From IMG/VR virus record IMGVR_UViG_3300013286_000048, positions 1 through 26,422 of that record: DNA of 26,422 nucleotides; one strand, 5' to 3'. The notes beneath the pieces are model-generated. The model made no database searches, was not told where the DNA came from, and was given only the letters and a program-made list of their open reading frames with translations. Positions 1 through 17,582 of this stretch are shown in pieces. The position numbers were made by a program, and so were the translations under genes. The number at the start of each line of letters is the position of its first letter. Position 1 is the stretch's first letter. Origin of the DNA: a virus.

Positions 1-3000
1 AGAAGGCGTGCAATGACTTGGTTGGAGATCAAGAATGGATGTAATGGGCCTCCCATATTGTCGCCGCGAGTTGTGTGCCTGTCTGCCTCCAGCATTCCAA
101 CCTGTTCTCCGTTGATGTCTTCTATGGAGCCGACTTTTGGGGTGATTGTTGATGTTGGATCTACTTGATATTGCACTTCCCTTCCATCGTCTGTTAGTTG
201 CATTGCAATTGTATAATGACCACTTGCTGGAACCTTTTTAGGAAGTTTTGTGGCAAAGCCTGCCTTTTGAACTGCGTCAGCTTTATCAAGTTCAATTTGC
301 TGTTCTGGCTTAAAACTAATTCCACCAATTGGCGCAATGCCTGCCAACGGCTTGGCAGTCTCCTGCGTCTTGGTCTTAAAGCCTTCCCAATCGACCTTGC
401 CGTCCTCAGGTTCTTTAAGCTGTCCTTCTGCCTTTGCTTTTTCAGCCAAATACTCACGATACGGCTCTAGGATATTGGCTAGGTGATCAGATAAACGAGT
501 CGCCGCTTTAAGAACATTTTCCTTTGTGTCAAAATTATCAACTTGAATTACTTTTGTTGGAAAACCAAACTCTCTTGCTCTAAACACAGACACATCGTGA
601 TTTCTGATAGTAATCTTGTGGTTTTCTCTATCTGTTTCATAGGTGTTTTCTAGCGTTTCGCCTTCTCCTGTTGGAATAGAGATATGAATATATTTGCTTC
701 CTGTGGAGGCACCATGTTCATCATACCTTGCTCCTAAATTATCAAAAGCACCACTGAAATAATCTAGGACTAAACCAAAAGTAGAATCTTTTTCAATATG
801 GAAATCGTAATTTTCTTCTGAAGGATCAGGCAATGAATAAACGAAAGATTTTAGTTTTTCTTTGAAAGCGTTTATTCCACCATCATGGATTGAGGCATCG
901 TATTTCTCATTATTATCATCGCTCTTCGGCATGAACCTTATGTCGTTGCTCTGCTGGTTAAACCGCTGTGAGAGTGGGATCAGATTGCCTTGGTCGTCGT
1001 AGGTTGCAGGGTCTGATAGTTTTATCTGCGACGATTCAAATGGACGATATGTGTCGTGTGAATAATCATCCTCAACATCAATTCCTTTGACTTCTTCAAT
1101 CGGCTTTCCTGCAACTGATTGTTCATTAAAAAATTCTTTTCCAGCTTCAATCGTGTCTTTATGAATTAGCCCATCATAACCTCTTTGTTTAAGTGCTTTT
1201 ATGAACCATTGATTATCTGCTAATGCATAAGTATCTAATTCAATTCCTTGAAGAATATTGTCAATTTTTTCTGGCAGATCAGCATCGTCATTATCAATTA
1301 ATTCTTGTATTGCTTCACGCACATCACCAAAATGCCTTAAACGAAACATACCTTCATTATCAGAAGCCTGTATGTCACTTTCAAATTGAGTGGATTTTTC
1401 AAGTTTCTGTAACCTTACAAATAATTTTTTTAAGTCTTCAATTGTAAAAGTAGTATTTGGGTCTTCTTCTGTATTTGGTCGGAAATCATAATTTGTATAA
1501 TTTTCAATAATTTCACCAAGATTTACTTTTGTTCCGTATTCACGCAAATCCAAAGGGTTTTTTAGGTTTAGATATACCTTCTTTACACTTCCTGTTTCTG
1601 AAGGTTTTATTCCTCCAAACATGTCTCTATCATGGGTGTAAAGTTTAGCAACCTCTGGTACATCAGTAAACGAAAGCGTTGCACGACCTCCTTGTGTTTG
1701 CATTACTCTACTCTCGTTTAGTTTTTTTCTAATTCCACGATAGAGAGGATATGCAATTGGGAATCCCATTTCTTTTGCTTTTTCATCCACCAGCCTCTGC
1801 GCCTCCTCCATATCGCCAGACTCAATAGCCTTGGCGTGTGCCTCGTCTAGCTTGGATGCAGGCATGAAGGAGATGCCGCTTTTTCCTTCATAATCAACCA
1901 TGTCGCTGTGCAGGACTCCGCGAAGGGTGTCCACCTTTTCAGCTTCTGTTTTAGGTTCGCGTAATTGTCCAGCGGCTTTTGCTACTTTGAATGCCTCTCT
2001 GCGACTAACAAATTTTTTCGATCCATCTGGAAAAACTATTTCAAAACCATAACGCCATCCCTCTCTTTCAATTCTGTTGAATTTCCTGTTTTCTGCGCCT
2101 TCGATGTCAGAAAGAGGGAATGGCATAATCTCTTCGTGAGATTTTCCTGTTTCATATACAAGTTCGTTTCTAGGGTGTCCTGTTTCAAATGCCGCCGCGC
2201 TTACTTTTGTTCCTTCAGCATAACCAGATTTAAGAGTGTCTTCTTTAATTGTAGGTGGGAGTTCATTTGGTGTTACATCAGCCCAAACAAATTGCGGTTT
2301 GGATAATGCATCAAAATCATAAATCCTTCCATTGTCGGAATTCACAAAACGAACATTCCCGCCTAAATAATCTTTGCTAATATCAATAGCTAAAAGAGCT
2401 TCCATTGGTGCTACTACTTCCTTTGCTCCAACTGCCTTAATTCTGTCCCAACTATCAATTTTTGGAATAATTGTTGTTTTTGCCCCATTGATAGACTCAA
2501 CTTTTTTTAGTTCAGGAGCATAAAGATAACCAGAATCAACTGCAAAAAGATTGGTGCATTCTTTGAGCCTTGGAAGCACAACACTATTAGAATAATCAGC
2601 AAGGATTCTCCCTGCCTTTTCCAGTTTTGGAAGTGTAAGCTCTTTAAGATAGATCTCTCCACGGCGTGTAAAGTCTATGTCTCTGCATTCTTCTAGGTTA
2701 GGAGCATTTATACTTTTAACATTGCCCGCCATTAGGTCAGCGCAATTTTTTAGTTGCGGCAGATTAAGATTATATCTGTATTTATTAACAAGAATATCTC
2801 CAGAAGTTTCAAGTGAGCGTATGTCAATATCACCTTCAACTCGCTTGAAATTCAGGAATCCAGATTTCTTGAGTTTCGGCAATGATACAGATCCAAATGA
2901 TGCGGCATCAATGTTTCCGCATTCTTCAAGATTTGGCAGATCAACAACCCCTCCTCCAATCGGAGGAAGACCTTGAGGAAAGTTAATATCTCCTTTAATA

Positions 3001-6000
3001 ACCCTATATTTGTCCCGTTCTTTGTCCCTGAAAGAGTAATCATACGATGTCTTTAAGACACCTGTCTTTTCATCGAAAATATCTGCTTGCGTAGGGGCAT
3101 GATCCCTAAATGGAGCAATATATTCCTGATCAAAATCTCCGCGAGCCATTCGCGCCCGTGGAGGAATAAAGATTCCTAGCTGATTGTAGTATTTGTAAGC
3201 CTCTTCAGGAACCTTTCCAGTTTCCATAACCTGAACTGCCATTTTCCTAAAATCTCTGTCATACAGGTAGCTTTCTCCTCCAGTCGGGCCTTCTCCGCTC
3301 CTGATAAACTCCTCTGCCTTCTTGTCATATTCAGGCTTGGTAATATTTTGTGAATCGCCGCGACCTCGCACCTCTGCAATCTGACCATTGTCGGTGCGGA
3401 TTGCTACCTGTGGCTCACCCTGATCAAAATATAGGTAGAAGTCACCACCAGAGAGGTGGCTGTTTGCAGTTCCTACGCTTCCACCAGTACACCATTTGGT
3501 TCCAGCGCAATCTGCGTTCAGCGTCTCTGCGTCACCCATGTCGCTTGACTGGTCGTATTTCTTCCACCCTGTGAAGACTCCGCGCTTCTTTACGCGAGCT
3601 TGGATGACATCAAATACGCCCTTTGTATAGGCTTCCTTTGAGGACATCCCTTGGCGCATATAGTCAGCAATCTTGGAAGCGGTTGCTCCTGAAACCTCGT
3701 TAGGAACAGCCTCGTTTCCGTTGGAGATGTTCTGGATGAGGGGAACCATCTCGCCGCTTTCGTTGTAGCCAGCATTCACCCTGAACTTGGCGGAGGTGTT
3801 GAGGATTGCGGCTACTTCGGCTGGGGTGTAGGAGCCTCTAAACGCCTGATTGCGAAGATTCTCATATGTGTCACCATTTAGCTTTTCTAACTCCGCTTGC
3901 TTTTCTTCCCATAGCCCAATATCACCACTTGCAAAAGCATCATTTATTTCATTGATTTTCTTTTGTAAATCCGTCTGATTTGACTCCTTCATCTCCCAAA
4001 GTAAATAATTCGCGCTCTTTGCAAGCGCATTAACCCTGAATTGCGTGATCTCGTCTACGCGATCTTGATTAAATGAGTTGTCAAATTCTTGCTGGCTCAT
4101 GTTGCGGATGCGAAGCCAGTCTGGTGGAAAATCTGCCGCCTGTGCAGGCGTAGCGTTGCGAACCACTTTCTGGTAGTAGTTCTTGATCTTCTCTGGGTCG
4201 ATTTTGGGAAATAATTCACCTTTTGGTGGTGCGCCTCCATAAACATACGCTCCATACTTTTCACCAACATAATTATGAATAAACGCATCCAGTGCCGCCA
4301 TCGTTGCAGGCTTGGCCTTAATTCCGCTGTTCTCTAGCTCGCGGTCAAAGAACTCAAGGTGCTGCTTGGTTCCCTCCTCGCGGATCTCCATGCTAGCAGG
4401 CATGAAGAACAGCCCAGAACCACCAACTTTCCTAGACGCTTCCATGTAATCATATTGTGATCCAGCAATCGGGTTGTACGAGGTATCTTGATTTTCCATT
4501 TCCTCTCGCGCCGCCATGATGCGGTTCACATAATCATCCTTTGTTTCGCCATCGCGCTGTGGAGATACATACCTAACACCAAACGGTTTTTCCTCCTTGC
4601 TGTGCGCGGCGGTAATGCCAAGGTCGATAGCTGACGGCCTGCGTTCTTCCTCAACACGGGGAGCTGTCTCACCTTCTTCTGGACGCTCTTCGTAAGGCAA
4701 GCCGGATTCCGGCATGGCATTGATCTTTGCCTTGTAATAATCGACTGGTATATTCTGAGCGTTGCTTTTTTGGAGTGAAGACACATGGTCTGCTCTCATC
4801 GACATAATCGTGCGATCAAGGTCAGCTTGTTTTCCTTTGAGATAAAAGCGGTTTTGATTCTTAAACTCAGTATCCTTGTCTTTTAGATTCAAGAAGTTGT
4901 TAAAGATGTCGCGTTTGAGTTTTGCTTTAGTTTCATCAGCATCCAGTCCTTCCCATCCCTCTCGTCCGGCCTGCCAGTTTGCAAGGTACTTGGTAACAAA
5001 GTCATTAAAAAACTCTGACTTGCTTCCGTTCCACATATCAAGAATATGTGGGAACTCAGCACCCCATGCGTGGATCTTATTAAAGAGGCGAGTGGCAGAA
5101 ATGACTGTTACGTTGAAATTCCCGTCCTTCGTAAAGTGCATTCCAATCGGAACCACATCATACTGCTTCATCATCAGCGACTTTCTCTTCCCTTTCTTGC
5201 CGGAGGTTGGCGAATACTCTGCAAGCCAGCGTTGGCCTTCTCCAGATGCCAGCGTCTCGTTCATCGACAAGATTACATCCTTGATTGCCTTGGGAACAAC
5301 ATTCTCCGGCAGGTTCTTGATGTTTTGGATCTGATCGGGCGTGAATGTTCCGCGCCATGTAATTCCCTCTTCAGGAATTTCCCCAGTAATCCCAAGTGCG
5401 TTGAGTATCAAGTCCCTGCGAGCCTTTTGATTCTTTTTGATTTGCGAATCAGATAGCATGATCGGGCTTTCACCATCAGGCTGCATGGCAACCTCGCGGG
5501 TGACAGTTATAGATCCACCTTCAGGTATCTGGACATTATTAACTTCGTCTGGGATCTGTCCGTACCCTTTTGTTTGTACTGGCCTGCCAGTCGACGGATC
5601 TACCTTCCAGCTACCTTCGGCGGCTGATGGATTGGCAACAGAAACCTTGGAAACAACTTCGCCCTTCGCATTTCGTATCGTCGCGTATACCTGAGTCTGA
5701 TACATCCCGCTATTAACTCCGTACTTTTTAAGAAGACCCTTGTTCTTCTTCATGTCTTTCTGAGAAATCTCAATAGTTGGCTGAGAATCGATTACAGGAG
5801 CGATATGACCATTGTAGTCATTGACCGCTTGGATCGATTTTTGGGTAGCCGCCTGAATTTCAGGAGTAAACTCAATGCCAAGTACAGGCGATGGCTTCAT
5901 TGGGTTAGGGCCACCAACGCCAAGTACGGCATTAACGGCTCTGCCTAGCATATTATTAGAATTGCTTGTCCTAGCCCACCGCATCAAAGCAGTTTCTCCA

Positions 6001-9000
6001 CCATTGAGAACCATTGAGTGGAGCGAATTACCAGCCATTTCAGCGATGTACTCTTCCCTCATGTACGGAATCACTTCCTTGTCAATCATTCGGTTGTTTG
6101 CCTCATCCCACATTCCTTGAGAAGAAAGCCAAGCCTTCTTTTTCTCGTCGGTACGGCCTCGCAAATAGTTATTCCACATGAGATCTTTCAGGAACTCATT
6201 GGATACCATACCCGTGTCTTGGGACGCTATTGTTCCATCATCGTGATAAATGTTGGTCGAGAAAAGCGCGGAAAGCAGTTCCGAATTAGTTTTTTGGAAC
6301 TCTTCTGTGCGTCCGTACAAATGACCGCCTTCATGGGTCAATGCATCGTAAATTGTAGACCCGTAAATCCCTGCACGCCGCTTGGCGTTGTCCATATTGA
6401 TGATTCCAGTAGTTTTGCTCGGATCAAACATGATCGGGTCATTTTTCAATGCGTCTGCAAGGTCTGTTCCTGCACGCAATTCAATTCCTCCGGCTGAAGT
6501 GACGACGAAGCCGTCCTGAGATGCAATCATCTCCAGCTTTGCCATGCCCTGCGGAGTGCTTGCCAATTCCTTATTTTGATCTATTAGCCTTTGCAGGATC
6601 TGGTCTTTTGTAAGAACTTCCAAACCGACATTGCTTTGTCCAGCAAGCAGAGGCCCATTAAGCCCCCTATGGATATTGGAAAACAGCAAATCCTGCTGTC
6701 TTCCGTACTCTCTCATGGTCTCGGAATTGGCACTCATGAACTGAGTCAACTTGTCGTCAGCTTGCTGGTAGTCTTCTTGAGCTTTCTTGATATCTTCTGG
6801 CTTCGACTTTGGATTTACCACCAGCGTGCGTAGATCCTCGTACTTTTGCGCCACGATACCGCGCTGATTGTTCACCACATTCCTGTAGTCGCGGATGTCG
6901 TTCATGTTGCGCTTCGTTTCATCAGAAGCGTCCTTCTTTGCGTAATAAATCGAAGCATTTTCCTGCCGGATTCTGTTTTCTCTGGCGGTTGGAGATTCAT
7001 GGATTGCAGACGAGATGATGTGAGGAATCATCATCATAGCCATGCCATTTGCGACCTCGGATGGCATATCCTCATGCGGCGTGCTTTCAATAATTCCCAT
7101 CGCTGCGGCAAGCGTTCCCGCTTCAATACCTCCGTAAGCCATCGGAACAAGGTTTTGGGCAAACCAATTCGCTACTGGAGAGCTAATCTTGCCTATTTTA
7201 CCTCCAAACAAATTTTGAGTTGCCTTTGTTGATGTTGGAAGGTTTCCGGCGATTTGAAAAACATTCCCACCAGTCCCACGAAGCCCTTGTTGGACTTTGC
7301 CAAGGTCTGCAAGAACTCCGGCAGTACTTCCAATTCCCCTAAGTGCGCCATATCCGGCAAGCTCTCCGGCGGCTCCATATTCAACTCCCTTGAGAAATCC
7401 GGCTGCCATTCCAAGCGGCCCTTCATTGCGGTTCCCATACGCCCCAATAGCTCCTGTAGTAAACGGTATAGCCGTACCCAATGCTCCAGTAGTAGCATAT
7501 TTTTTAAGAGCATCGGCTGCTGCATTGGCATTTTGGCTTATTCCATTAGCCCAAAGGTATGGTTTAGGAACACCCCACGGGCCAAGTTTGATTTCAGTAC
7601 CATTTCCCCTCTCAAGACGCTCTGCCTCAATCTTATCCTGCAAATCTTTGTGCAGGAGATTAGAATTGTACTTATCCTCTCGCATCTGTTCTTTTGTGCG
7701 AGGTGGTGCATTTTCTTTGGGAGCGGCGGTAATGTTTCCCCTTTCATCAACCAAAAATGTTCCTCCTTCCCTTGCTGTCTGAGCAATATCTGTCATTGCC
7801 ATAGCCTGCGGTAGCAGAGACTCTAGCTCGTTAAGTCTTGCCGCCTCTCGGAAACCTTTTCCAGCAATATTTAATGCCTCCATAGCGGGGCCGAAAACAT
7901 TTGCTTCAGGGATAAACAATTGAGCGGCTGTAGCCACATCTTCCTTTTCTTTTGGAAGCTGAGATGCCCACTTTTGAAGCGTTGCAGATCCCCAATTCTG
8001 CGAGTCTTTCATCCATTGTTGAGTAGCTTGACCCTCTGTAAGTGTAGGATCTTTAAGCATCCGCTCTTTAACGCTGGGTACAAGATAACTTGCAAGTAAC
8101 GGTCTTAAAAGCTGTGCGTAGCTTTGCTGGCCTCCATCTTCCGTAGGTGCTTCACCAGCATAGTAAAGTATCTTTCCAATGTTGCTTGGAGCTTTAGCAT
8201 TTACCCGCGCTCTATCTGCATCAATGTCGTTACGGGTCATGAAATTGACCAACTTCTCGGCCTTTGATTTAGGATTCCATGAAATAAGTCCACTTTCATC
8301 AATTGCCAGACCAAGATTATCGGCAAGTTCTATGCCGCCTTCTTGAGCCTTACGCGCCATTTGATATACTTCCAGAGGCACTCCTCCAATAGAACCACCA
8401 ACACTATAAATATCTTTCCCAACTTCCTTTAGTTTTTCCGTTTCTGTTGGTTTTGCTTGCTTATATTTAGGTTCTTCAGGCATCCCCTTGCCAGTAATGT
8501 AATCCAAAAATTCGGCATTCTTTGACCATTCTGCGTATTTTTTTAAATAATCTTCCTGTGCTTTCTCATCTTCCAAAGACTGGTAGTACACGCTCTTTTC
8601 GCCTTCTTTAGGCGGTTGTGGTTTTGGCGGTACTGGCCTCCCCTCTCGCTGTGCAGCATAAGCCTGCATTGCCCATTGCGTGTATTGAGAATCGTAGCTA
8701 TCACTAGGAGCAAACATACCCTGCTTTGTGCCTGCTTCGCCCATTCCCAATGCAGTTGAAGGAATTCCTGTAAGAAATGAAAGAGGGGCAGCGGCATCGG
8801 CAACATCCTTTGCCGTAGTTCCTACCCCTGAGTATGCCTTGCCAAAAAAGTTAGCCAATCCAGTAGCTGCATTAACAAACGGATGCCTATCTGTATTTTG
8901 CGGACTATTGTAGTAGTCCATCATCGCCAAGCTCTGCTTAACACCAAATTTCAGCTTTGGGTTGGCTTTATGTAGTTCGTAAATAGCTTTCCCGTCCGTA

Positions 9001-9338
9001 GTATTATTAATGTAATCCTGAATCATATAATCAGGATTTTCAGGATCAAACTTTGACGCTTGTGCAATTAGCGAATTATCTTCTTGCGGCTGCTTTTGTT
9101 TGCTAACCGATGTTTTGTTTTGAGCTATTTGTTGATCTGGAGGAAGAAAACTTTCACCAGTTACAGATGCCTTGTTTTCAGCAATCTGATCTTCAGGACT
9201 TTTGTATACTTGCTGAGTTTCAGCCTTTTGCTCTGTATTCTCTGTTTTGGATGGCGTTAAAACAGATTCCTTGTTCCTTTTGATTTGTTCGTCAGGAGGG
9301 AGCAGTACATCAGAGTCTGTGTTAGTTTGTGCCGCCAT
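1..9338 (-). CDS. Giant polyvalent protein (>=3112 aa, 3' end outside window) with zincin, K-W-C-T-G-G, LRR and ART-PolyVal domains
   Basis: One frame stays open from the ATG at 9338 to the window edge, giving 3112 codons with no stop. Visible order by residue: three degenerate P-x-QI-xx-NK-x-SV repeats (15-78); a long unassigned helical part; Gly/Ala-rich hydrophobic stretches (about 614-690 and 720-778); a zinc-protease motif HEGGH (1002-1006) with EEYIAE (1095-1100) as the likely third ligand region; GTKWCTGG then GDFYLYF and VAIR (1946-1981); a leucine-rich solenoid with L-P-x-L repeats (about 2110-2330); a FVSRREAFKVAKAAGQL segment (to about 2459); and an ADP-ribosyltransferase domain from YRG (2533-2535) through SFTDVPEVA to QIKLSDPATYDD and DIRFMP (2799-2804). 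This combination is typical of phage polyvalent proteins, which are thought to be injected with the DNA. The start overlaps the 658-aa gene by 17 nt, consistent with translational coupling. Ejection and enzymatic activity are inferred; the ART call is the firmest. Confidence 0.9.
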   Translation of the reverse strand, partial: MAAQTNTDSDVLLPPDEQIKRNKESVLTPSKTENTEQKAETQQVYKSPEDQIAENKASVTGESFLPPDQQIAQNKTSVSKQKQPQEDNSLIAQASKFDPENPDYMIQDYINNTTDGKAIYELHKANPKLKFGVKQSLAMMDYYNSPQNTDRHPFVNAATGLANFFGKAYSGVGTTAKDVADAAAPLSFLTGIPSTALGMGEAGTKQGMFAPSDSYDSQYTQWAMQAYAAQREGRPVPPKPQPPKEGEKSVYYQSLEDEKAQEDYLKKYAEWSKNAEFLDYITGKGMPEEPKYKQAKPTETEKLKEVGKDIYSVGGSIGGVPLEVYQMARKAQEGGIELADNLGLAIDESGLISWNPKSKAEKLVNFMTRNDIDADRARVNAKAPSNIGKILYYAGEAPTEDGGQQSYAQLLRPLLASYLVPSVKERMLKDPTLTEGQATQQWMKDSQNWGSATLQKWASQLPKEKEDVATAAQLFIPEANVFGPAMEALNIAGKGFREAARLNELESLLPQAMAMTDIAQTAREGGTFLVDERGNITAAPKENAPPRTKEQMREDKYNSNLLHKDLQDKIEAERLERGNGTEIKLGPWGVPKPYLWANGISQNANAAADALKKYATTGALGTAIPFTTGAIGAYGNRNEGPLGMAAGFLKGVEYGAAGELAGYGALRGIGSTAGVLADLGKVQQGLRGTGGNVFQIAGNLPTSTKATQNLFGGKIGKISSPVANWFAQNLVPMAYGGIEAGTLAAAMGIIESTPHEDMPSEVANGMAMMMIPHIISSAIHESPTARENRIRQENASIYYAKKDASDETKRNMNDIRDYRNVVNNQRGIVAQKYEDLRTLVVNPKSKPEDIKKAQEDYQQADDKLTQFMSANSETMREYGRQQDLLFSNIHRGLNGPLLAGQSNVGLEVLTKDQILQRLIDQNKELASTPQGMAKLEMIASQDGFVVTSAGGIELRAGTDLADALKNDPIMFDPSKTTGIINMDNAKRRAGIYGSTIYDALTHEGGHLYGRTEEFQKTNSELLSALFSTNIYHDDGTIASQDTGMVSNEFLKDLMWNNYLRGRTDEKKKAWLSSQGMWDEANNRMIDKEVIPYMREEYIAEMAGNSLHSMVLNGGETALMRWARTSNSNNMLGRAVNAVLGVGGPNPMKPSPVLGIEFTPEIQAATQKSIQAVNDYNGHIAPVIDSQPTIEISQKDMKKNKGLLKKYGVNSGMYQTQVYATIRNAKGEVVSKVSVANPSAAEGSWKVDPSTGRPVQTKGYGQIPDEVNNVQIPEGGSITVTREVAMQPDGESPIMLSDSQIKKNQKARRDLILNALGITGEIPEEGITWRGTFTPDQIQNIKNLPENVVPKAIKDVILSMNETLASGEGQRWLAEYSPTSGKKGKRKSLMMKQYDVVPIGMHFTKDGNFNVTVISATRLFNKIHAWGAEFPHILDMWNGSKSEFFNDFVTKYLANWQAGREGWEGLDADETKAKLKRDIFNNFLNLKDKDTEFKNQNRFYLKGKQADLDRTIMSMRADHVSSLQKSNAQNIPVDYYKAKINAMPESGLPYEERPEEGETAPRVEEERRPSAIDLGITAAHSKEEKPFGVRYVSPQRDGETKDDYVNRIMAAREEMENQDTSYNPIAGSQYDYMEASRKVGGSGLFFMPASMEIREEGTKQHLEFFDRELENSGIKAKPATMAALDAFIHNYVGEKYGAYVYGGAPPKGELFPKIDPEKIKNYYQKVVRNATPAQAADFPPDWLRIRNMSQQEFDNSFNQDRVDEITQFRVNALAKSANYLLWEMKESNQTDLQKKINEINDAFASGDIGLWEEKQAELEKLNGDTYENLRNQAFRGSYTPAEVAAILNTSAKFRVNAGYNESGEMVPLIQNISNGNEAVPNEVSGATASKIADYMRQGMSSKEAYTKGVFDVIQARVKKRGVFTGWKKYDQSSDMGDAETLNADCAGTKWCTGGSVGTANSHLSGGDFYLYFDQGEPQVAIRTDNGQIAEVRGRGDSQNITKPEYDKKAEEFIRSGEGPTGGESYLYDRDFRKMAVQVMETGKVPEEAYKYYNQLGIFIPPRARMARGDFDQEYIAPFRDHAPTQADIFDEKTGVLKTSYDYSFRDKERDKYRVIKGDINFPQGLPPIGGGVVDLPNLEECGNIDAASFGSVSLPKLKKSGFLNFKRVEGDIDIRSLETSGDILVNKYRYNLNLPQLKNCADLMAGNVKSINAPNLEECRDIDFTRRGEIYLKELTLPKLEKAGRILADYSNSVVLPRLKECTNLFAVDSGYLYAPELKKVESINGAKTTIIPKIDSWDRIKAVGAKEVVAPMEALLAIDISKDYLGGNVRFVNSDNGRIYDFDALSKPQFVWADVTPNELPPTIKEDTLKSGYAEGTKVSAAAFETGHPRNELVYETGKSHEEIMPFPLSDIEGAENRKFNRIEREGWRYGFEIVFPDGSKKFVSRREAFKVAKAAGQLREPKTEAEKVDTLRGVLHSDMVDYEGKSGISFMPASKLDEAHAKAIESGDMEEAQRLVDEKAKEMGFPIAYPLYRGIRKKLNESRVMQTQGGRATLSFTDVPEVAKLYTHDRDMFGGIKPSETGSVKKVYLNLKNPLDLREYGTKVNLGEIIENYTNYDFRPNTEEDPNTTFTIEDLKKLFVRLQKLEKSTQFESDIQASDNEGMFRLRHFGDVREAIQELIDNDDADLPEKIDNILQGIELDTYALADNQWFIKALKQRGYDGLIHKDTIEAGKEFFNEQSVAGKPIEEVKGIDVEDDYSHDTYRPFESSQIKLSDPATYDDQGNLIPLSQRFNQQSNDIRFMPKSDDNNEKYDASIHDGGINAFKEKLKSFVYSLPDPSEENYDFHIEKDSTFGLVLDYFSGAFDNLGARYDEHGASTGSKYIHISIPTGEGETLENTYETDRENHKITIRNHDVSVFRAREFGFPTKVIQVDNFDTKENVLKAATRLSDHLANILEPYREYLAEKAKAEGQLKEPEDGKVDWEGFKTKTQETAKPLAGIAPIGGISFKPEQQIELDKADAVQKAGFATKLPKKVPASGHYTIAMQLTDDGREVQYQVDPTSTITPKVGSIEDINGEQVGMLEADRHTTRGDNMGGPLHPFLISNQVIARL
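9105..9299 (-). repeat. Three degenerate N-terminal peptide repeats in the giant protein
   Basis: Residues 15-26, 48-59 and 67-78 of the giant protein each read P-[DE]-x-Q-I-x-x-N-K-x-S-V (PDEQIKRNKESV, PEDQIAENKASV, PDQQIAQNKTSV). They are separated by polar linkers. They could be docking motifs or virion-packaging tags; this is not established. Confidence 0.8.
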
Positions 9339-11298
9339 CTGGTGCTATGAAAATTGGCTGTTGAGGAGTTTCGTGATATATCAGTCGTCCAGACCATCCA
9401 GCAGGATAGCGAACGCCATTAATGACTTCTCCGTATTGCTTTAAGTCATCGAAATTGGCAGGAATGCCAGTTTTTGCAATATCCAAATCCTTTAATAACT
9501 GCATATGACGCTGGGTGGCCTTTTTATATGCTTCAACGTCTTTCGGTTGCTTGTTTTTTCTATTGCCCCACGCATCATTCATTTCCTTCTCTGTTTGAGA
9601 TATTTCTTTTTCAACATCTCCCTGCAAGCGAAGAATTGGATACTTGTGAGCGCGATTGTCTTCAGTAATATTTTGGCTTTCCAATCGGTCAATCATGCGG
9701 TTTTTGCTAGCTACCAAAGTATTAAGCCCCTCATGCTCCATATTAAGAACCTTGGTCATGGATTCAGCCATTTCTTTTCTTTCTTCAGGAGTAAGAAGAT
9801 TTGTCGATGATGCCGGAACATTCTTAAAAGCCAGAGTTTGCAATTTATTCCAAAGCGGCCTGTTGTTGGTAAGCATTTCGTACTGATTGTGCGTAGGAAC
9901 ATTACCAGTAGCAAATCGCACATATTGATCCATTAAGCTCTGATCAAGTTGTGACCTATTGCCATAGTTTTCTCCCATTTCAACAAGTGTTGTCAGATCG
10001 CCAAAGAATTTCTCCATAGTAGGCTTTATCTTATCCTTGGCCTGTTTAACCGCGGTATCTTGGTTAAATTTATCAACCGATTGATTGAAAGAATCAATCT
10101 CCTTAAACTCCTGACGCTGCTTTAGTCTTTGCTCACCAAGATCACCAAACATTGAAGCCTTTTTTACATCGGCAGCAGTAGGCCATTTTACTTCAGTCAT
10201 GCCATTTCCAACTCCAGTAAGGACTGGAAGTTCAATATCTTTCATGCCGCGAGCTTTTGAATATTCAAGAATAGCTTGGGCTGTTTGATCAGGAATTCCT
10301 TTATAGTTTTTATGAAGCTCTTTTTCGTATTCAGGTATTACTGGTGCTTTTTGACTAGCAAGTGCCTGATTACCATCCATGATTCCCAACACCCTCTCCA
10401 ATGTTGCTGATTCTTGGTTATTCATCCCCCCTAGATTGGACAATGAATTGAAATATTGTTTGGGATTACGCAGTAACGAAGGCTGTGTAGGAGTAGCAGA
10501 AACAGATGCTCCAGCACCAAGTCCAGCACCAAATCCATTCTGGTTAGCCCAATCTACATTAGAAAGTTGTTTAAGTGCTTGTTGATTGTTGAAAATTGTA
10601 GGTGCTTCCGTTGTTGGGACTGGGCTAGTAATGTCGCCAAGTGGGTTTTTAGGAGCCGGAAGAACATCTTTTGGAGGTTCTGATCCAGTACCAAAGTCTG
10701 TGCCTCCCATTTCTTCAATTTCTTTATCTGTGGGTAATTTCCCAAAATCAGCATCTGTTTTAATTTCCTCACGATTGTACTTGTCAGAAATTGTACTTGC
10801 AGGAGTTGGAGGGGTAGAATCTTTATATTCTCCAAAAGAAGGAAGCTGTAGGTTTGTAAATCCCTTAGCACCAGCATCTATCATGTGTTGCTTGAAATTT
10901 TCCATTTCTTGATTGTGCCTGCGCGTTTCTTCCAACCGCAAATTTGCCAATTCATTAGACTCTGCTGATTTTATGCCAGCAATTTTTTCCTGACTAGCCC
11001 TCTCCTCACGCTTTAGCTGAATCTCTTGATCCTTTTCTGCCTGCTTTTGTTTATTCAGATAGATTGCCTGAATCCCTTGCGAAATTCCCTGTGCGGCCTG
11101 AGAAATACCAGACCCAATTCCTTCGCTAACTATCTCAGGGCGTGCTGATGGAACACTCCATCCGGCAAGGGGAGAAATTTTAATTGGAGATGATTGACCT
11201 CCGGCAAACGACAAGGGCTTTAACCCCGAAAGCTGATACCCTTGGGCTAAGTCAGGGGTAGGAACTTGGATATTAAAGCCTTGAGTTTCTAGTGCCAT
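9322..11298 (-). CDS. 658-aa coiled-coil protein, candidate ejection (internal virion) protein
   Basis: Starts at ATG 11298, six bases after the preceding gene, and overlaps the giant gene by 17 nt. Residues 47-73 carry a W-x-x-x-SA-x-PE-x-V-x-EG motif running into AQGIS, shared with the 125-aa protein at 12444-12821. After it comes a charged, heptad-rich stretch (about 80-140) that looks like a long coiled coil, then a Pro/Thr/Ser-rich linker (about 155-240) and a mostly helical C-terminal half. No catalytic motif is visible. Long helical proteins just before the largest virion protein are typical of podovirus ejection proteins such as those of T7 or P22, and I infer that role from position and composition rather than recognised homology. 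It could instead be a tail-assembly or scaffold component. Confidence 0.85.
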   Translation of the reverse strand: MALETQGFNIQVPTPDLAQGYQLSGLKPLSFAGGQSSPIKISPLAGWSVPSARPEIVSEGIGSGISQAAQGISQGIQAIYLNKQKQAEKDQEIQLKREERASQEKIAGIKSAESNELANLRLEETRRHNQEMENFKQHMIDAGAKGFTNLQLPSFGEYKDSTPPTPASTISDKYNREEIKTDADFGKLPTDKEIEEMGGTDFGTGSEPPKDVLPAPKNPLGDITSPVPTTEAPTIFNNQQALKQLSNVDWANQNGFGAGLGAGASVSATPTQPSLLRNPKQYFNSLSNLGGMNNQESATLERVLGIMDGNQALASQKAPVIPEYEKELHKNYKGIPDQTAQAILEYSKARGMKDIELPVLTGVGNGMTEVKWPTAADVKKASMFGDLGEQRLKQRQEFKEIDSFNQSVDKFNQDTAVKQAKDKIKPTMEKFFGDLTTLVEMGENYGNRSQLDQSLMDQYVRFATGNVPTHNQYEMLTNNRPLWNKLQTLAFKNVPASSTNLLTPEERKEMAESMTKVLNMEHEGLNTLVASKNRMIDRLESQNITEDNRAHKYPILRLQGDVEKEISQTEKEMNDAWGNRKNKQPKDVEAYKKATQRHMQLLKDLDIAKTGIPANFDDLKQYGEVINGVRYPAGWSGRLIYHETPQQPIFIAPDGGTN

Positions 11299-11304
11299 AA
11301 AATT

Positions 11305-11805
11305 TTAACTTCCACCAAGGTTGATACCTTGAACTGATGGTGACGCAAACATATTTGTGGAAGCTCCTGTAGTATTGACGACAGGGGCGGTAGCAGATGC
11401 TCCAGCACCAACTTGCTTGGGAGAAGCTATTCCCGCGCCTCCGGCCTGTCCAATATTACCCAAAGAAGCTCCTTTGGCGGTAGCAGGATTAAAAGCCCCG
11501 CCAATGGCCGTAGTCGCTGAACTTGCATACGGGGTGGTTGATGTTACAGAAGCGTCTTTTGTAACCTGCTGTTGATTCGATGCAGAGATTTGTTGTTTTG
11601 CCGTATCAGTACCCTTTTGAGCCTGCGTGTTGGCATTTGTGATTGCGGTATTGTATGCCGCATCTTCTTGGGATTTCTTTTGGGCAGCAGCGGCGGCAGC
11701 AGCAGCAGCAGCTTGTTGTTGCATTATAGCCAACAATCCACTCTGATCTGTTTGTTGTGGTTGTGACTGATAATAACCACCACCACCTGCTTTAGATCCG
11801 CCCAT
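11305..11805 (-). CDS. 166-aa Ala/Gln-rich low-complexity protein, paralogue of the next upstream gene
   Basis: I chose the ATG at 11805 because it lies one base after the TAA of the preceding gene and has a strong GGGAGGT ribosome site; a longer open frame to 12045 would overlap that gene heavily. The protein begins MGGSK, has a Gly/Tyr/Gln stretch, then ten alanines in a row, then a Q/N/T-rich body with GGAFN and a Gly/Ala/Ser-rich tail. It aligns with the 198-aa protein at D-A-x-YN, ANT, QQI, NQ, DAS, GGAFN and N-x-G in the same order, so the two look like a tandem duplication. Function is unknown. Small Ala/Gln-rich proteins in this part of podovirus genomes are often virion or ejection proteins. 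Confidence 0.85.
   Translation of the reverse strand: MGGSKAGGGGYYQSQPQQTDQSGLLAIMQQQAAAAAAAAAAQKKSQEDAAYNTAITNANTQAQKGTDTAKQQISASNQQQVTKDASVTSTTPYASSATTAIGGAFNPATAKGASLGNIGQAGGAGIASPKQVGAGASATAPVVNTTGASTNMFASPSVQGINLGGS
11684..11713 (-). repeat. Alanine-codon trinucleotide run
   Basis: A run of about ten GCN codons (mostly GCT and GCC on the coding strand) encodes consecutive alanines in the 166-aa protein. Such a run is prone to slippage. The paralogue has broken Ala/Gln runs at the same place. Confidence 0.75.
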
Positions 11806-11806
11806 A

Positions 11807-12403
11807 TTACCTACCTCCCAGCGTGCTAGCTTCTTGTTTATTGCCAATAATATTTGCCGCAGTAACCCCCGTGTTGCTAGTTGGAGTAATTTGAGCGGCT
11901 GTAGTTGCGGCAGGATTGTAAATCTTAGGGTTGGCGATTTGATTGTATGCAGTATTGGGCATATATCCAGAAGCAGATCCAAGGTTGGAGATTTTGTTCT
12001 GCTGTGCCTGTCCAAGATTGAAAGCACCTCCTGTAACATTTGCACCAGTTCCAGCCATTGCTGATTGATAAGCCTTCAACGCGGATGCGTCCTGAGCTTG
12101 CTGATATTGGTTTTGCAATCCAATTTGTTGTGCTGCTTGTTGCGCTCCTTGAGATCCGGCTGTATTTGCGGCTTGAACTTGCGAGTTGTAGATAGCGTCT
12201 TGCTGTGCCTTCAGAGCGGCGGCTTGTGCAGCGGCTTGTGCAGCCTGCTGCTGGGACAAAAATGCCATCAGAACAGCATTGGAATCGGCCTGTGGATCAG
12301 AGTACATACCCATACCACCTCCGCCTCCTTTTCCTCCACCCTTCCAATTGAATAATCCATGGTCAGCAGACCATCTTTGTTTTAAGAAGCTATTTCCGCC
12401 CAT
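11807..12403 (-). CDS. 198-aa Gln/Ala/Gly-rich protein, candidate virion/ejection protein
   Basis: ATG at 12403 begins MGGNSFLKQRW. Residues about 20-35 are almost all glycine and lysine, followed by a Q/A-rich helix (QQQAAQAAAQAAALKAQQD) and an Asn/Gln/Thr-rich tail. It shares ordered landmarks with the 166-aa protein encoded next (DAIYN, ANT, QQI, NQ, DAS, GGAFN, SNLG). No enzymatic motif or signal peptide is seen. The 40-nt gap before it is one of the longest in the late block; it is A/C-rich with a CAACAACAAC run and has no clear Shine-Dalgarno site. The stop region (GGGAGGTAGGTAA) doubles as the ribosome site of the next gene. Confidence 0.85.
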   Translation of the reverse strand: MGGNSFLKQRWSADHGLFNWKGGGKGGGGGMGMYSDPQADSNAVLMAFLSQQQAAQAAAQAAALKAQQDAIYNSQVQAANTAGSQGAQQAAQQIGLQNQYQQAQDASALKAYQSAMAGTGANVTGGAFNLGQAQQNKISNLGSASGYMPNTAYNQIANPKIYNPAATTAAQITPTSNTGVTAANIIGNKQEASTLGGR

Positions 12404-12443
12404 AATTTTAGTTGTTTTTCAGTTGTTGTTGTAGGTTAAAAAT

Positions 12444-12821
12444 TTAGTAGTTGTACCCATACAATCTTTCCATCTGATCGGGCTGGTAATTAACACCTTT
12501 CGCTTGCGGGTAATACGAAGATCCATCCCTGCTATATCCATAAGCGTAGGGAGCGGCTTGTTGTGCATCTGTGACAGAATTATATCCACTAGATGCATTG
12601 GGGGTTGCTCCCTTATATGCACCAGCGGCAGAAGAAATACCTTGAGCAAAATTAGAAACACCTTGCGCCATTCCTTCTGTAACTTTTTCAGGGTGTGCGC
12701 TGTCAATCCTCCATGGATGCTGATAGGTAGCATCTTGGAATCCCCTGCCATCACGATTTCTAGGATCGATAGCATGAAGAGGTTGAATACTTACTTCGTT
12801 ATTTGGATTGGCTCCACCCAT
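12444..12821 (-). CDS. 125-aa small protein with the ejection-type W-SA-PE-V-EG-AQGIS motif
   Basis: ATG at 12821, beginning MGGANPNNE. Residues 37-63 read W-R-I-D-SA-H-PE-K-V-T-EG and end in AQGIS, matching residues 47-73 of the 658-aa protein in spacing and identity. The C-terminal third is Tyr/Ser/Gly/Gln-rich (YGYSRDGSSYYPQ) and ends YGYNY. A longer-named alternative frame in this interval would require abandoning this motif, so I reject it. Function unknown; the shared motif suggests that both proteins bind the same partner, or that this is a shortened duplicate of the 658-aa N-terminus. Confidence 0.8.
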   Translation of the reverse strand: MGGANPNNEVSIQPLHAIDPRNRDGRGFQDATYQHPWRIDSAHPEKVTEGMAQGVSNFAQGISSAAGAYKGATPNASSGYNSVTDAQQAAPYAYGYSRDGSSYYPQAKGVNYQPDQMERLYGYNY

Positions 12822-12840
12822 GCGGCGTAAATTAATGATT

Positions 12841-13053
12841 TTAAGTGTTTATGGCAACATCTTTATTAATATCCCAAGTTCCGTTGGCATAGAACTTTAT
12901 CTGGTCGCTCCTAAAGTGACGAATATGTCCTCCATTTCGCATTATTACAGCAAATAGATCATTTTGCCACCCGCTCTCTGCCTGAACATAGAATAAATAG
13001 CCATCTCCCGTAGGAGTAACTACATCAATTGGACTTTTGAATTCGTGTATCAT
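12841..13053 (-). CDS. 70-aa hypothetical protein
   Basis: I chose ATG 13053 (MIHEFKSPIDVV), one base after the PP-loop gene's stop; a TTG at 13083 would add ten residues but overlap that gene. The sequence has alternating hydrophobic and polar residues (YLFYVQAE, LFAVIMRNGGHIRHF, IKFYANGTW) that suggest a small all-beta domain. No known family is recognised. The tight spacing implies cotranscription with the PP-loop gene upstream and the virion genes downstream. Confidence 0.7.
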   Translation of the reverse strand: MIHEFKSPIDVVTPTGDGYLFYVQAESGWQNDLFAVIMRNGGHIRHFRSDQIKFYANGTWDINKDVAINT

Positions 13054-13054
13054 G

Positions 13055-13900
13055 TTATTTGTTCCAAACTGGTTGAAATCCAAGGTCGGGGAATACCATG
13101 TCCTCGTATGGAGCCATGTGCGACATATTTGTAATGGTAGCCTTTAGTTTTGGGCAGTAAGCAGGCTGTCCAGCCGTGTGCCTATCAATGCAGTTTAGGC
13201 AGGTAGGAATATAGTCGGCATTCTTACTTTTATCGGACTTGTGACCCCAAGCTCCATTAGCAAACTCATACCTATCAAGATCAGGCAATATCCCGTGATC
13301 TTCTAGCCATGCATACACCTGATCATCAGTCCAGTCCCTAAGCAAATATAGGCTCATCGGAGACCCCTCGGCGTATCGGATGTCCTGAGTCATTGGTACA
13401 TGGCCCTTAATAGGGTCTGTATCGCATTGTTTTGTTCCAATGAATACTCCATGCCAAGGCCAATTAAAATTTCCAGTAGGACGGCCTAAAAAGTCGATAC
13501 CGCAAAGATACTTTTCATTCGCTACAGGACGCTCGGTTCCCAGAGACAGGACAATACATTTAGTTCCCCATTGCTGATATTTCAGGAGATCAAACCTCAT
13601 CTTGCCCGTATTTACATCAGGGCCATCTGCTATTGCTACCCTCATTGGTGGGTACTCATGCATTTCAAGATCCCACAATTTAATCAGCTTGTCGCTATAG
13701 GCATACCTTTCGCGAAAGTACGGCTCCCTGAACTGGACTACAGGAAGGTGAATATTGCACGCAAACTTCAAAAAATGAAGTAGGGCAGTAGAGTCTTTGC
13801 CGCCGCTCCAAAGAACGGCTGACTTAGGCCACCTATTTATCCACTCTTTTGCTTTTTCCTTAGTTTCAGATATTAATTTTTGTGTGTATGTTTCATTCAT
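13055..13900 (-). CDS. PP-loop ATPase of the PAPS reductase / adenine nucleotide alpha-hydrolase superfamily
   Basis: Start ATG 13900 overlaps the preceding stop by one base (TAATG); the longer frame to 14038 would overlap that gene by 139 nt. The protein is 281 aa. Residues 32-37 are SGGKDS, the PP-loop that binds ATP pyrophosphate, followed by TALLHF. The C-terminus has Cys234, Cys237 and Cys249 (CLNC and YCP), possibly a metal-binding or sulfur-handling site. Family members adenylate a substrate, as in sulfate reduction, thiolation, or Dnd-type phosphorothioation (DndC). PAPS-reductase-like genes are common in phages but their role is mostly unknown. Here the gene sits inside the virion block with no dnd or cys partner visible, so I cannot choose a substrate. 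Confidence 0.88.
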   Translation of the reverse strand: MNETYTQKLISETKEKAKEWINRWPKSAVLWSGGKDSTALLHFLKFACNIHLPVVQFREPYFRERYAYSDKLIKLWDLEMHEYPPMRVAIADGPDVNTGKMRFDLLKYQQWGTKCIVLSLGTERPVANEKYLCGIDFLGRPTGNFNWPWHGVFIGTKQCDTDPIKGHVPMTQDIRYAEGSPMSLYLLRDWTDDQVYAWLEDHGILPDLDRYEFANGAWGHKSDKSKNADYIPTCLNCIDRHTAGQPAYCPKLKATITNMSHMAPYEDMVFPDLGFQPVWNK

Positions 13901-14436
13901 TAAATAGCAACAGCCGCTGCAAGTGCAATGGCTCCAGCCGCTGCTCCTCCGGCGGCATACATTGATCCAGTAGCAGAATTTTTTGATTGTGCATCGTTGA
14001 CGGCCCCTTGGTACATTGCTTGCTGGTAATTCTGCCAATTCTGATTGTTTGCATTAACTGCTTGAGATTCAGAACCCATCATTTGATTAATCCAGTCCAT
14101 ATTCGATTGTGCGTTGCCTTGCGCCCCTTGAATCGCTGAATTAATTATTTCCCTACCCAATTTTGCGCGTTGTGCTGCGGCAGACTCAAGCTGTTGTGCG
14201 CCAGCGGTAGGGTTGATGCCAGTAACTGGAGGTTGTCCGATTAATGCTTGCGCTTGAGCAATATTTTGTGCGCGAAGAGCCGATCCTTGCTGTGTTGCGG
14301 CATCATAAAAACCACTTTTTCCGATGGTGCTATCTTTTAACCCAGTACCAAGGTAATTCTCAAGACCCTTAGTCTTTGACCAGTTGTTAAGCTGATCAGA
14401 CCACAAATAATTACCTGAAGAATCTTGGTTAACCAT
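13900..14436 (-). CDS. 178-aa Gln/Asn-rich protein with hydrophobic Gly/Ala C-terminus, candidate ejection protein
   Basis: ATG 14436 (MVNQDSSGNYLW). The body is rich in Q, N and A with a long predicted helix (about 80-150). The last ~20 residues are Gly/Ala/Ile/Val-rich (AAGGAAAGAIALAAAVAI), which could be a glycine-zipper membrane helix. A soluble helical protein ending in such a segment fits a phage protein that inserts in the host envelope during DNA delivery. This is inference; no family is recognised. It directly precedes the PP-loop gene, with one shared base. Confidence 0.82.
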   Translation of the reverse strand: MVNQDSSGNYLWSDQLNNWSKTKGLENYLGTGLKDSTIGKSGFYDAATQQGSALRAQNIAQAQALIGQPPVTGINPTAGAQQLESAAAQRAKLGREIINSAIQGAQGNAQSNMDWINQMMGSESQAVNANNQNWQNYQQAMYQGAVNDAQSKNSATGSMYAAGGAAAGAIALAAAVAI

Positions 14437-14437
14437 A

Positions 14438-14812
14438 TTAAATTAGGCCAGTCTTATTCCCGTATTGATTCATGGTGTTCTGCCAATAATTTGGTGTCAC
14501 ATCCTGATATGACGCTTTATTTAGTTCAGACCTTGCGGCTGCGGCTTCTGGATTTTGCATCTGCTCTAGCTTCTGGCTGTTGTAGGCATTGATAGCGGCT
14601 ACTTTGTTTGCTTGCTCTAGTTGACCAGATGGCCCGTATACATCGGGAGTATAAGCCTGCTGAGGGATCGAAGAAACCAATTTAAGCAGTTCGCTCTGAT
14701 TTGTTAGTGCATTCTGACCAAGCTGTGACTGCATGGCAATTTGTGCCAGAGCCAAAGAATTATCTGGCTTAGAAATATAATTAGCAGGATTAGGAGATGA
14801 TGAGCCGCCCAT
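14438..14812 (-). CDS. 124-aa hypothetical virion-type protein
   Basis: ATG 14812, beginning MGGSSSPNPANYI, one of four proteins in this block that start M-G-G. It is polar and helical (ALAQIAMQSQLGQNAL, then LEQANKVAAINAYNSQKLEQM) with a short C-terminal PNYWQNTMNQYG. It ends one base before the start of the 178-aa gene. No family recognised; position and composition resemble the small internal proteins of short-tailed phages. Confidence 0.8.
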   Translation of the reverse strand: MGGSSSPNPANYISKPDNSLALAQIAMQSQLGQNALTNQSELLKLVSSIPQQAYTPDVYGPSGQLEQANKVAAINAYNSQKLEQMQNPEAAAARSELNKASYQDVTPNYWQNTMNQYGNKTGLI

Positions 14813-15452: not shown

Positions 15453-17582
15453 TTAGCATGGGTTGGCTAGTCGGTATTGCTGGGCAGAGTTCGTTGCTTC
15501 TTGAGTTGCAAGGTTAGATGCCTGTTGGATTGCGTCATCGAGCGAGGTATAGCTTGTGAACGATGCTGTAGCGGTTGCCGACACAGCAGGCGTTGAGTTG
15601 TTGCAACGGAGAGTTATGGTTCGTGTTTGCGTGCTAGACCATGAGTTTATTGCATTGCCAGCAGATTCTTGTGGAGCCGGAGCGAGATCAACTTTCTCAC
15701 TAACCCCGTCCTCGCCAACTACGCAATATTGTGTCTCGTTTGAGCTTGGCAATCCTACTGACTTTTCTGACCAGAGGTCTTGGAACATACGGATTGCATC
15801 AACACCCATAGCTCCACACCATTCAACTAAGAAGCTAAACGCCTTGTCCACATCGTATGTGTAAGTTGATTCACAGGAAGTTGAAGTAAGGCGAGAAACA
15901 TTTTCAGTAGTTAGCCTGCGAGATTGTGTTTGTAAAATTCCAAGTTTTGCAATTTGCGAAGCGTATTGGCTGGTTTCAAACTGATAAGGCTCTGTTGCTG
16001 CTAGGATTCTGGTATTCAGGATGGGGCTATATGTTCCCTTTGTGCCTCGGTACGATACCTTCACATCGACCGTTCCAGCAATCTGAGAGCAATCCAACTC
16101 CCCATAAGCCAGTTGCTTCATATCCATTGAGTCGCCCAGCAAGGCGGTCTCAAACTGGCAGTAAATCCTATTAACAAGCTCGTCTGTAGTGCCGTCCTGA
16201 TTGATTTGCAAGTATGTGTCATAACGCTCCGGCGAGAACGCCTCCCACATATGATTGAATGAACCATCGCTGGTGCTGGCATAGTCTACTGAGAATGCAA
16301 AGATGCGAGGCTGACCAGATATAATGTTTGAAGACCAGCAGACAGGCCGGATACCAGTCCAAACTCCAGCCCATGCAGGAACTTTTGTCTGATTCCATTC
16401 TGATGCCGGAGCATAATCCAAGACCATTGTAACGCTGTTCGTAGGCTCCAGATACGGGATGCTGTACAGCAGATAATTCTCAAACGATGCCGCGCATACG
16501 CTGCTGGCATCTGCCGCCATGAGCCTCTTTGCCTTAGCCATTTCAATATCCTTGTATAGAACCTGACTAGACAGATACGAGGATGAGGCCACATCGACGC
16601 TGACAAGACCTCCCTGAGAGTACCACCACATCATGCCAGCTTGGAATGCGATGCTGTTTCCAGCAATACATCCGATGGTAGGATATAAGGTAGATTGGAA
16701 GTTGGGAGTAACTCCCCATTGGGCGCGATCTAACACGCCGCTCGCTAAGCTGTATGTGGATTGATCAGTAAATACATAAAGTCGAGTGTCGTTGTTTTGA
16801 CCGACATAATCGTGCATCGCAGTAACTGGCCTTGGGACGCTGAAGTCACCTCTTCCGGCTCCCTCGGTTCGTTCTTTCCAACTCAGCGGGTCTGCAAGGT
16901 CGGATGCGGCAATAATGTTGCCAGTCGCCACCCACAGGCGACTTCCTGAGTATGCCATCCAGTATCCGATGGGCATCTTTTCAGCGATCTGACCAGACTT
17001 GTCAGAGCCGTCCCAGTATCCGGCTTGATTTATACCATCTTGGACGATGACTAGGCGGTGGGAGGGGACAACGGTCGTCGTCGAGCTATTACCAAGTGAT
17101 GCAGACTGCGTAGCAATAATGAAATTTACATTCTTTATATTCGGGTCGAGCGAAATATTGGAAAGCCTGTATTCATCCCAAGAACGCGGTTGAGTAAGCG
17201 GAAACGGCGCATAGTATACTTTTCCGTCAACACAGAAAACCGCATAAGTAATTTCAGAAACAGCAACGCCATTGCCATCTGGGTTATATACAGCGGCCTG
17301 CTGCGTAATCGCAACTCCCGCTTGGTTTGTTATTGTTTGAGCCGCTTGAAATTGCTTGTTTGCGTTAAATACTACACCGCCTTGGAAGTTTCCGGCAGGT
17401 AGCGATAATTTCATTTTAAACCCATTGCGGGTCTGAACCACTCCGCCCCTGCAAGTAATATTCTGACCGAATTTGTACTGGTCTTCAGGAAGCGTCCAAG
17501 GATTCCTAACGGAATTCATGCCATGCATCCACGATGCGGTGGCTTTTATCTGCCTGCCGGATGTGATGTTCGGACTTTTCAT
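15453..17582 (-). CDS. Tail tubular protein B / tail nozzle-like protein (709 aa)
   Basis: Start ATG 17582 overlaps the upstream stop (TAATG); a TTG two codons earlier is less likely. The N-terminus (SVRNPWTLPEDQYKFGQN, then RGGVVQTRNG) and the motif RLYVFTDQSTYSLASG (about residue 270) are the pattern I associate with podovirus tail-tube tip proteins (T7 gp12, P22 gp10 class), which form a hexameric beta-propeller nozzle. The protein is long, beta-rich, and ends in a Ser/Thr/Ala-rich ~60-residue tail. It follows the 1191-aa adaptor-like protein as gp12 follows gp11 in T7. Length is close to the T7 protein (about 790 aa). Homology is judged by pattern and synteny, not by a search. Confidence 0.8.
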   Translation of the reverse strand: MKSPNITSGRQIKATASWMHGMNSVRNPWTLPEDQYKFGQNITCRGGVVQTRNGFKMKLSLPAGNFQGGVVFNANKQFQAAQTITNQAGVAITQQAAVYNPDGNGVAVSEITYAVFCVDGKVYYAPFPLTQPRSWDEYRLSNISLDPNIKNVNFIIATQSASLGNSSTTTVVPSHRLVIVQDGINQAGYWDGSDKSGQIAEKMPIGYWMAYSGSRLWVATGNIIAASDLADPLSWKERTEGAGRGDFSVPRPVTAMHDYVGQNNDTRLYVFTDQSTYSLASGVLDRAQWGVTPNFQSTLYPTIGCIAGNSIAFQAGMMWWYSQGGLVSVDVASSSYLSSQVLYKDIEMAKAKRLMAADASSVCAASFENYLLYSIPYLEPTNSVTMVLDYAPASEWNQTKVPAWAGVWTGIRPVCWSSNIISGQPRIFAFSVDYASTSDGSFNHMWEAFSPERYDTYLQINQDGTTDELVNRIYCQFETALLGDSMDMKQLAYGELDCSQIAGTVDVKVSYRGTKGTYSPILNTRILAATEPYQFETSQYASQIAKLGILQTQSRRLTTENVSRLTSTSCESTYTYDVDKAFSFLVEWCGAMGVDAIRMFQDLWSEKSVGLPSSNETQYCVVGEDGVSEKVDLAPAPQESAGNAINSWSSTQTRTITLRCNNSTPAVSATATASFTSYTSLDDAIQQASNLATQEATNSAQQYRLANPC

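Follow-up and report, generated by a model that had tools for sequence, protein, structure and literature searches.

The window, by which we mean the whole stretch of DNA analysed here, is IMG/VR virus record IMGVR_UViG_3300013286_000048 (26,422 bases). At one end it carries the giant gene that is the subject of this report, with virion-type genes upstream of it on the same strand.

3 to 9338, minus strand: gene for the giant polyvalent protein, 3112 codons, with its 3′ end off the contig, homologues known
9322 to 11298, minus strand: 658-aa protein, candidate ejection partner, directly upstream of the giant and syntenic in relatives
15453 to 17588, minus strand: 711-aa virion (tail) protein, 57–74% identical in relatives, with a weak match to phrog_511
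17582 to 21157, minus strand: 1191-aa virion protein matching phrog families of head closure, baseplate and virion structural type

The giant frame starts with ATG at base 9338 and runs without a stop off the contig at base 3, in agreement with the single frame of at least 3112 codons given in the preliminary description. Within bases 1–9338, rival frames have longest stop-free runs of 193 codons on the plus strand and of 114 and 79 codons on the minus strand. Because relatives supply complete homologues of 2049–4269 aa, we regard the frame as a gene with a real missing end. The 17-nt overlap with the upstream gene, which had been singled out as worth study, is present but not conserved, with gaps of 1–9 nt in relatives; since they lack it, the overlap carries no weight. 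The apparent 47-nt overlap of giant and upstream gene in the relative L064 is based on an uncertain TTG start. A check of start sites showed no clear Shine-Dalgarno signal in either direction.

The family set consists of 19 IMG/VR loci gathered by trunk alignment and the window, which together give 15 giants of 2,049–4,269 aa, except the contig-cut L066 and L070/L071. Searches of IMG/VR and INPHARED with full-length patterns and with tblastn of the giant gave no match, but shorter conserved pieces did retrieve relatives from IMG/VR, and the piece with the WCTGG motif, used as a query, gave nine IMG/VR loci. Against 50,697 phage records, neither the whole giant protein, nor the tail gene of the window, nor the trunk of a relative had a match, so the phage group has no close cultured member among those records. 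Prophage relatives of the trunk were not found in 84,980 genomes. The phage belongs to an uncultured, short-tailed-type or podovirus-like group; a candidate terminase in a 59,008-base related record has weak PDB matches to terminases.

Gene order is kept among the relatives: a pair of large virion proteins comes first, then small ones, often with MGG at the start, a protein of 560–750 aa, and the giant. The position after ejection-type genes described previously is a conserved one (phrog_511, weakly matched by the tail protein, is an internal virion protein family). As to the further claim that the giant is the last virion-type gene, relatives with sequence downstream mostly have a small ORF and/or a gene of ~433 aa there. 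The ~433-aa protein (MATEIPRKEDLKDISDAVCMFVDHGLF...), found after the giant in L075 and most relatives, has no convincing Pfam family. In the same operon of the window, a series of small M-G-G proteins (11305–14812), also seen in relatives, has no family match. Inside the virion gene cluster of L060, YcaO (Pfam E 9e-61) adjoins TfuA (7.5e-29) at L060:2858–4995, which is L040:14240–16377 on the minus strand, with equivalents in L061 and L063. YcaO-TfuA pairs modify peptide backbones, and a modified virion protein is conceivable here because the glycine-rich MGG proteins come right after the pair. At the corresponding position, the window has a PAPS-reductase-like gene (13055–14038; phrog_424, E 8e-7), which L069 and L074 share at 51–54% identity.

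The conserved part of the giant is an N-terminal trunk with four landmarks.

4710 to 7541, minus strand: conserved trunk, residues 600–1543, present in 15/15 giants
6321 to 6335, minus strand: HEGGH zincin motif, residues 1002–1006
4722 to 5366, minus strand: best conserved trunk part, residues 1325–1539; its AlphaFold2 model resembles WYL-domain SH3-like barrels
4710 to 4721, minus strand: N-A-M-P at the end of the trunk; 15/15 giants have N-x-[ML]-P here

Over residues 880–1560, the trunks of relatives are 30–39% identical to that of the window. A protease-like domain had been suspected in this protein, and the HEGGH motif at residue 1002, with a conserved Glu helix after it (residues ~1090–1100), supports this; motif and Glu are found in all 15 giants, with HExxH in 13 and HExxxH in L064 and L073 (HEGFGH and HEGGGH). 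Both forms of zincin are described in the available text of the 2017 survey of polyvalent proteins (Iyer et al., PMC5512222), and because HExxxH is a described variant, we dropped the reading that L064 and L073 had lost the zincin. The AlphaFold2 model of the trunk is of middling confidence (pLDDT 69, pTM 0.46). In residues 880–1180 of the model (pLDDT ~70–85 over much of the stretch), zinc metalloproteases (lethal-factor type, YbeY, IrrE/PprI and DPP III) align at Z 3–6, and for residues 1325–1539 WYL-domain regulators fill the top 8 rows from VIA-align (Z 6.8–9.3, 73–93 residues aligned), Z values in the middling range being common. This part of the trunk has no sequence match to WYL. The zincin and WYL-like fold matches, both drawn from predicted models, are suggestive; the Foldseek check proposed earlier gave no significant match for either this model or that of the cargo.

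C-terminal to the trunk, the giant consists of modules with a recurring tripeptide, F-[ML]-P, at their borders.

4398 to 4406, minus strand: F-M-P boundary motif 1, residue 1645
3189 to 3761, minus strand: GTxWCTG domain, residues ~1860–2050
2349 to 3035, minus strand: leucine-rich solenoid, residues ~2102–2330, 19-residue period, pLDDT mostly 80–92 over the core
1860 to 1868, minus strand: F-M-P boundary motif 2, residue 2491
927 to 1766, minus strand: ART-like module, residues 2525–2804, with R-S-E-like residues
927 to 935, minus strand: F-M-P boundary motif 3, residue 2802, at the end of the ART module
306 to 314, minus strand: F-K-P, a motif variant, residue 3009; FMP at the same place in L075 and L063
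3 to 305, minus strand: start of the shared C-terminal domain, 430–500 aa in relatives, here cut by the contig end

The cargo of the window thus runs from the GTxWCTG domain with the solenoid (residues 1648–2493) through the ART-like module (2494–2804) and a further stretch to the C-terminal domain (3012 on). The K-W-C-T-G-G domain of the preliminary description corresponds to the GTxWCTG domain, which is conserved in many giants, with invariant residues that include W, C, T and G, then GDFY, R, E and RG, and which is also found in other giant proteins bearing Kinase-PolyVal, LPD38 or LPD39. A GTxWCTG..GDFYVYY domain is further present in proteins of 490–860 aa in bacterial MAGs (L097–L108) assigned to Patescibacteria, Bacilli and unclassified bacteria, and those scanned have no convincing Pfam family. 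GNAT-like matches for this domain were too weak for use. The leucine-rich domain reported earlier appears as an LRR-like solenoid with a 19-residue period in the AlphaFold2 model of the cargo (pTM 0.42, middling confidence); its structural matches are LRR and beta-helix proteins at Z 10–12, a range common for repeats.

The ART domain is a more qualified case. In the window, the match to Pfam ART-PolyVal (PF18760) is sub-threshold (E 0.0046, 18.2 bits, below the gathering score of 31.2 bits), and where that family has the catalytic residues H-Y-D, the window reads R-S-E-like in an uncertain alignment. ART-PolyVal is above the cut-off in two relatives, L064 (E 2.8e-14; H-Y-D-like) and L063 (6.8e-9), to which the module of the window is linked by a conserved tail. 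Other cargo in relatives includes Kinase-PolyVal (E 7e-20), ParB-like and DUF7178 domains. On sequence grounds, the assignment of the giant to the known class of polyvalent proteins, already made in the preliminary description, holds because relatives carry Kinase-PolyVal and ART-PolyVal; LPD38 and LPD39 occur in the giants that share the GTxWCTG domain. The window adds two or more putative effector domains in one protein (zincin motif, GTxWCTG, solenoid and ART), encoded beside virion genes in a virus record with conserved virion-gene order.

What the first reading of the sequence could not reveal is that the giant is a fixed trunk with exchangeable cargo bounded by F-M-P. Residues 1–1345 of L060 and L061 are 98% identical, after which the two giants carry unlike cargo, in which only the C-terminal domains are alike and these are distantly related. 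Modular exchange takes place precisely at F-M-P: when the cargo is cut at the motif, 10 module pairs from different phages match along 90% or more of each member, compared with a mean of 0.08 full-length pairs, and at most 1, with random cuts (60 trials). L060 and L073, which have trunks of 32% identity, share a 678-nt module that is 98.1% identical, and the similarity begins and ends exactly at two FMP codons. Of 121 ends of nucleotide matches between cargo regions, 31 lie no more than 10 residues from F-[ML]-P, compared with 5.5 expected and a maximum of 16 in 2,000 trials. Because such ends are partly attracted to any conserved residue, we give most weight to the exchange seen at the nucleotide level and to the control with random cuts. 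Modules also change place: one that starts with VAVVPER is the first in L061 and lies further along in L075 and L062. L073, a giant with HExxxH, has three F-M-P copies, two of which bound the module that it has in common with L060.

The 15 giants contain 58 copies of F-[ML]-P where 8.1 are expected (maximum 18 in 500 shuffles), nearly all of them C-terminal to the trunk; the motif statistics cover 12–15 sequences that are not independent of one another. Outside the giants, genes from nine of these records have the motif at chance level (13 versus 10.3 expected), and we rejected the idea that it is a general trait of the proteins of these phages. Eleven giants from outside the family show no enrichment of the motif, so a general trait of giant polyvalent proteins was rejected as well. 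A third candidate, that F-M-P is part of the ART domain, was rejected with an unrelated 3,145-aa phage protein that has the ART tail IPLSKRFNSRSSDIR without FMP. L064 is an exception within the family in that its cargo modules are without F-M-P. In an unrelated marine giant (L084, 2,448 aa), M-S-F-P is strongly over-represented, with 14 copies, which could reflect either a simple repeat or a further boundary motif.

We consider it probable that the giant is a polyvalent cargo protein that is packaged and ejected with the genome and that combines a zincin trunk with effector modules joined at F-M-P. The trunk (about 1,540 residues, N-terminal, with the zincin) would be the part for delivery and processing, and the C-terminal half would be a row of exchangeable effector modules with F-M-P joints and the shared C-terminal domain last. 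From the gene order and the precedents of N4 and DEV vRNAP, we infer that the giant travels in the virion and leaves it alongside the genome, perhaps as beads on a string; the ejected modules, with their presumed enzyme activities, would then act on the host at once. F-M-P marks the junctions where the string gains or loses modules, and any processing by the zincin, before or after ejection, would have its best candidate site there. We hypothesize that the trunk zincin would cleave at F-[ML]-P, in the head or after ejection, freeing each module as an effector of its own from a phage-delivered polyprotein, with this cut code also keeping modules interchangeable between phages, a proposal that we put forward tentatively.

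F-M-P might instead be a structural joint only, a cap or linker that tolerates fusion, with the whole protein moving as beads on a string. In the models, the trunk-end copy and motif 1 are found in stretches of low confidence that are probably flexible, and L064 carries cargo where the motif is absent, both of which fit a joint without cleavage. A plain linker need not hold the same three residues, however, and F-M-P is nearly fixed with variable flanks across lineages whose trunks are 28% identical. Because N4 vRNAP, functionally the nearest model, stays in one piece through packaging and ejection (PMC12633501), we judge a joint without cleavage, somewhat short of an even chance, to be about as likely as cutting by the zincin. 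Conservation could also reflect recombination rather than protein function if TTCATGCC were a crossover site in the DNA: the exchange edges coincide with these bases, and the motif Phe codon is TTC in 47/55 cases. TTC is favoured before ATG elsewhere too (15:5 and 20:10), which leaves no clear excess of conservation in the DNA, and the codon use test gave no support to conservation at the DNA level. Since codon use in the motif does not clearly depart from that of Phe before Met elsewhere, selection seems to act on the protein. All TTCATGCC copies in the giants are in frame, and the lack of peptide excess in other phage genes likewise argues against crossover in the DNA, which we consider highly improbable. 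It is unlikely, but somewhat less so, that the giant is not packaged and is made late to act in the infected cell, for example against competing phages or in assembly. ART and kinase domains could work late; the fixed place of the giant after the tail and ejection-type genes, as for N4 and DEV vRNAP and for other polyvalent proteins that the available text of PMC5512222 reports or predicts to be packaged, speaks against this.

The F-M-P motif is a concrete candidate site for the self-processing predicted for polyvalent proteins. Because it parts modules in nearly all giants examined, L064 being the exception, it lets module borders be read and offers a route to new effector domains, and the same trunk with different cargo in different phages amounts to a natural experiment.

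In the portions of the 2017 survey available (PMC5512222), polyvalent proteins are predicted to be processed by their own zincins, in analogy to RNA virus polyproteins, and those portions give no zincin recognition site. The giant shares with the proteins described there its size and multidomain build, its location beside virion genes, zincins including the HExxxH variant, ART, kinase and ParB domains, and domain shuffling. It differs from those described in its fixed trunk and C-terminal string of modules with recurring F-[ML]-P; no inter-module motif of this kind was found in the same portions, and the terms KWC, LRR and leucine-rich are absent from the main text. Phage P1 DdrB, according to the available text, is head-packaged, bears a zincin and is processed, probably by that zincin; the text gives no cleavage site for DdrB (PMC5512222). 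In DEV, the gene order is gp73-gp72-gp71, and the position of the giant matches that of gp71, the ejected giant polymerase coded beside gp72 and gp73 (PMC10925440). A beads-on-a-string passage through the tail has been proposed for N4 vRNAP (PMC12633501). Like the N4 and DEV vRNAP (Schitoviridae; 3,400–3,500 aa; PMC12633501, PMC10925440), the giant is encoded next to ejection proteins and has an N-terminal part that may serve delivery, putative enzymatic cargo after it and a large C-terminal part. A single-subunit RNA polymerase domain was not found with Pfam, PHROGs or PDB sequences in the giant, whose last part lies beyond the contig, and its cargo, unlike theirs, varies among close relatives. 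In its way of working, the giant could be likened to polymorphic toxins, with near-identical N-terminal parts and wholly different C-terminal effectors in L060 and L061, but it sits in a phage virion operon and would carry several effectors in series.
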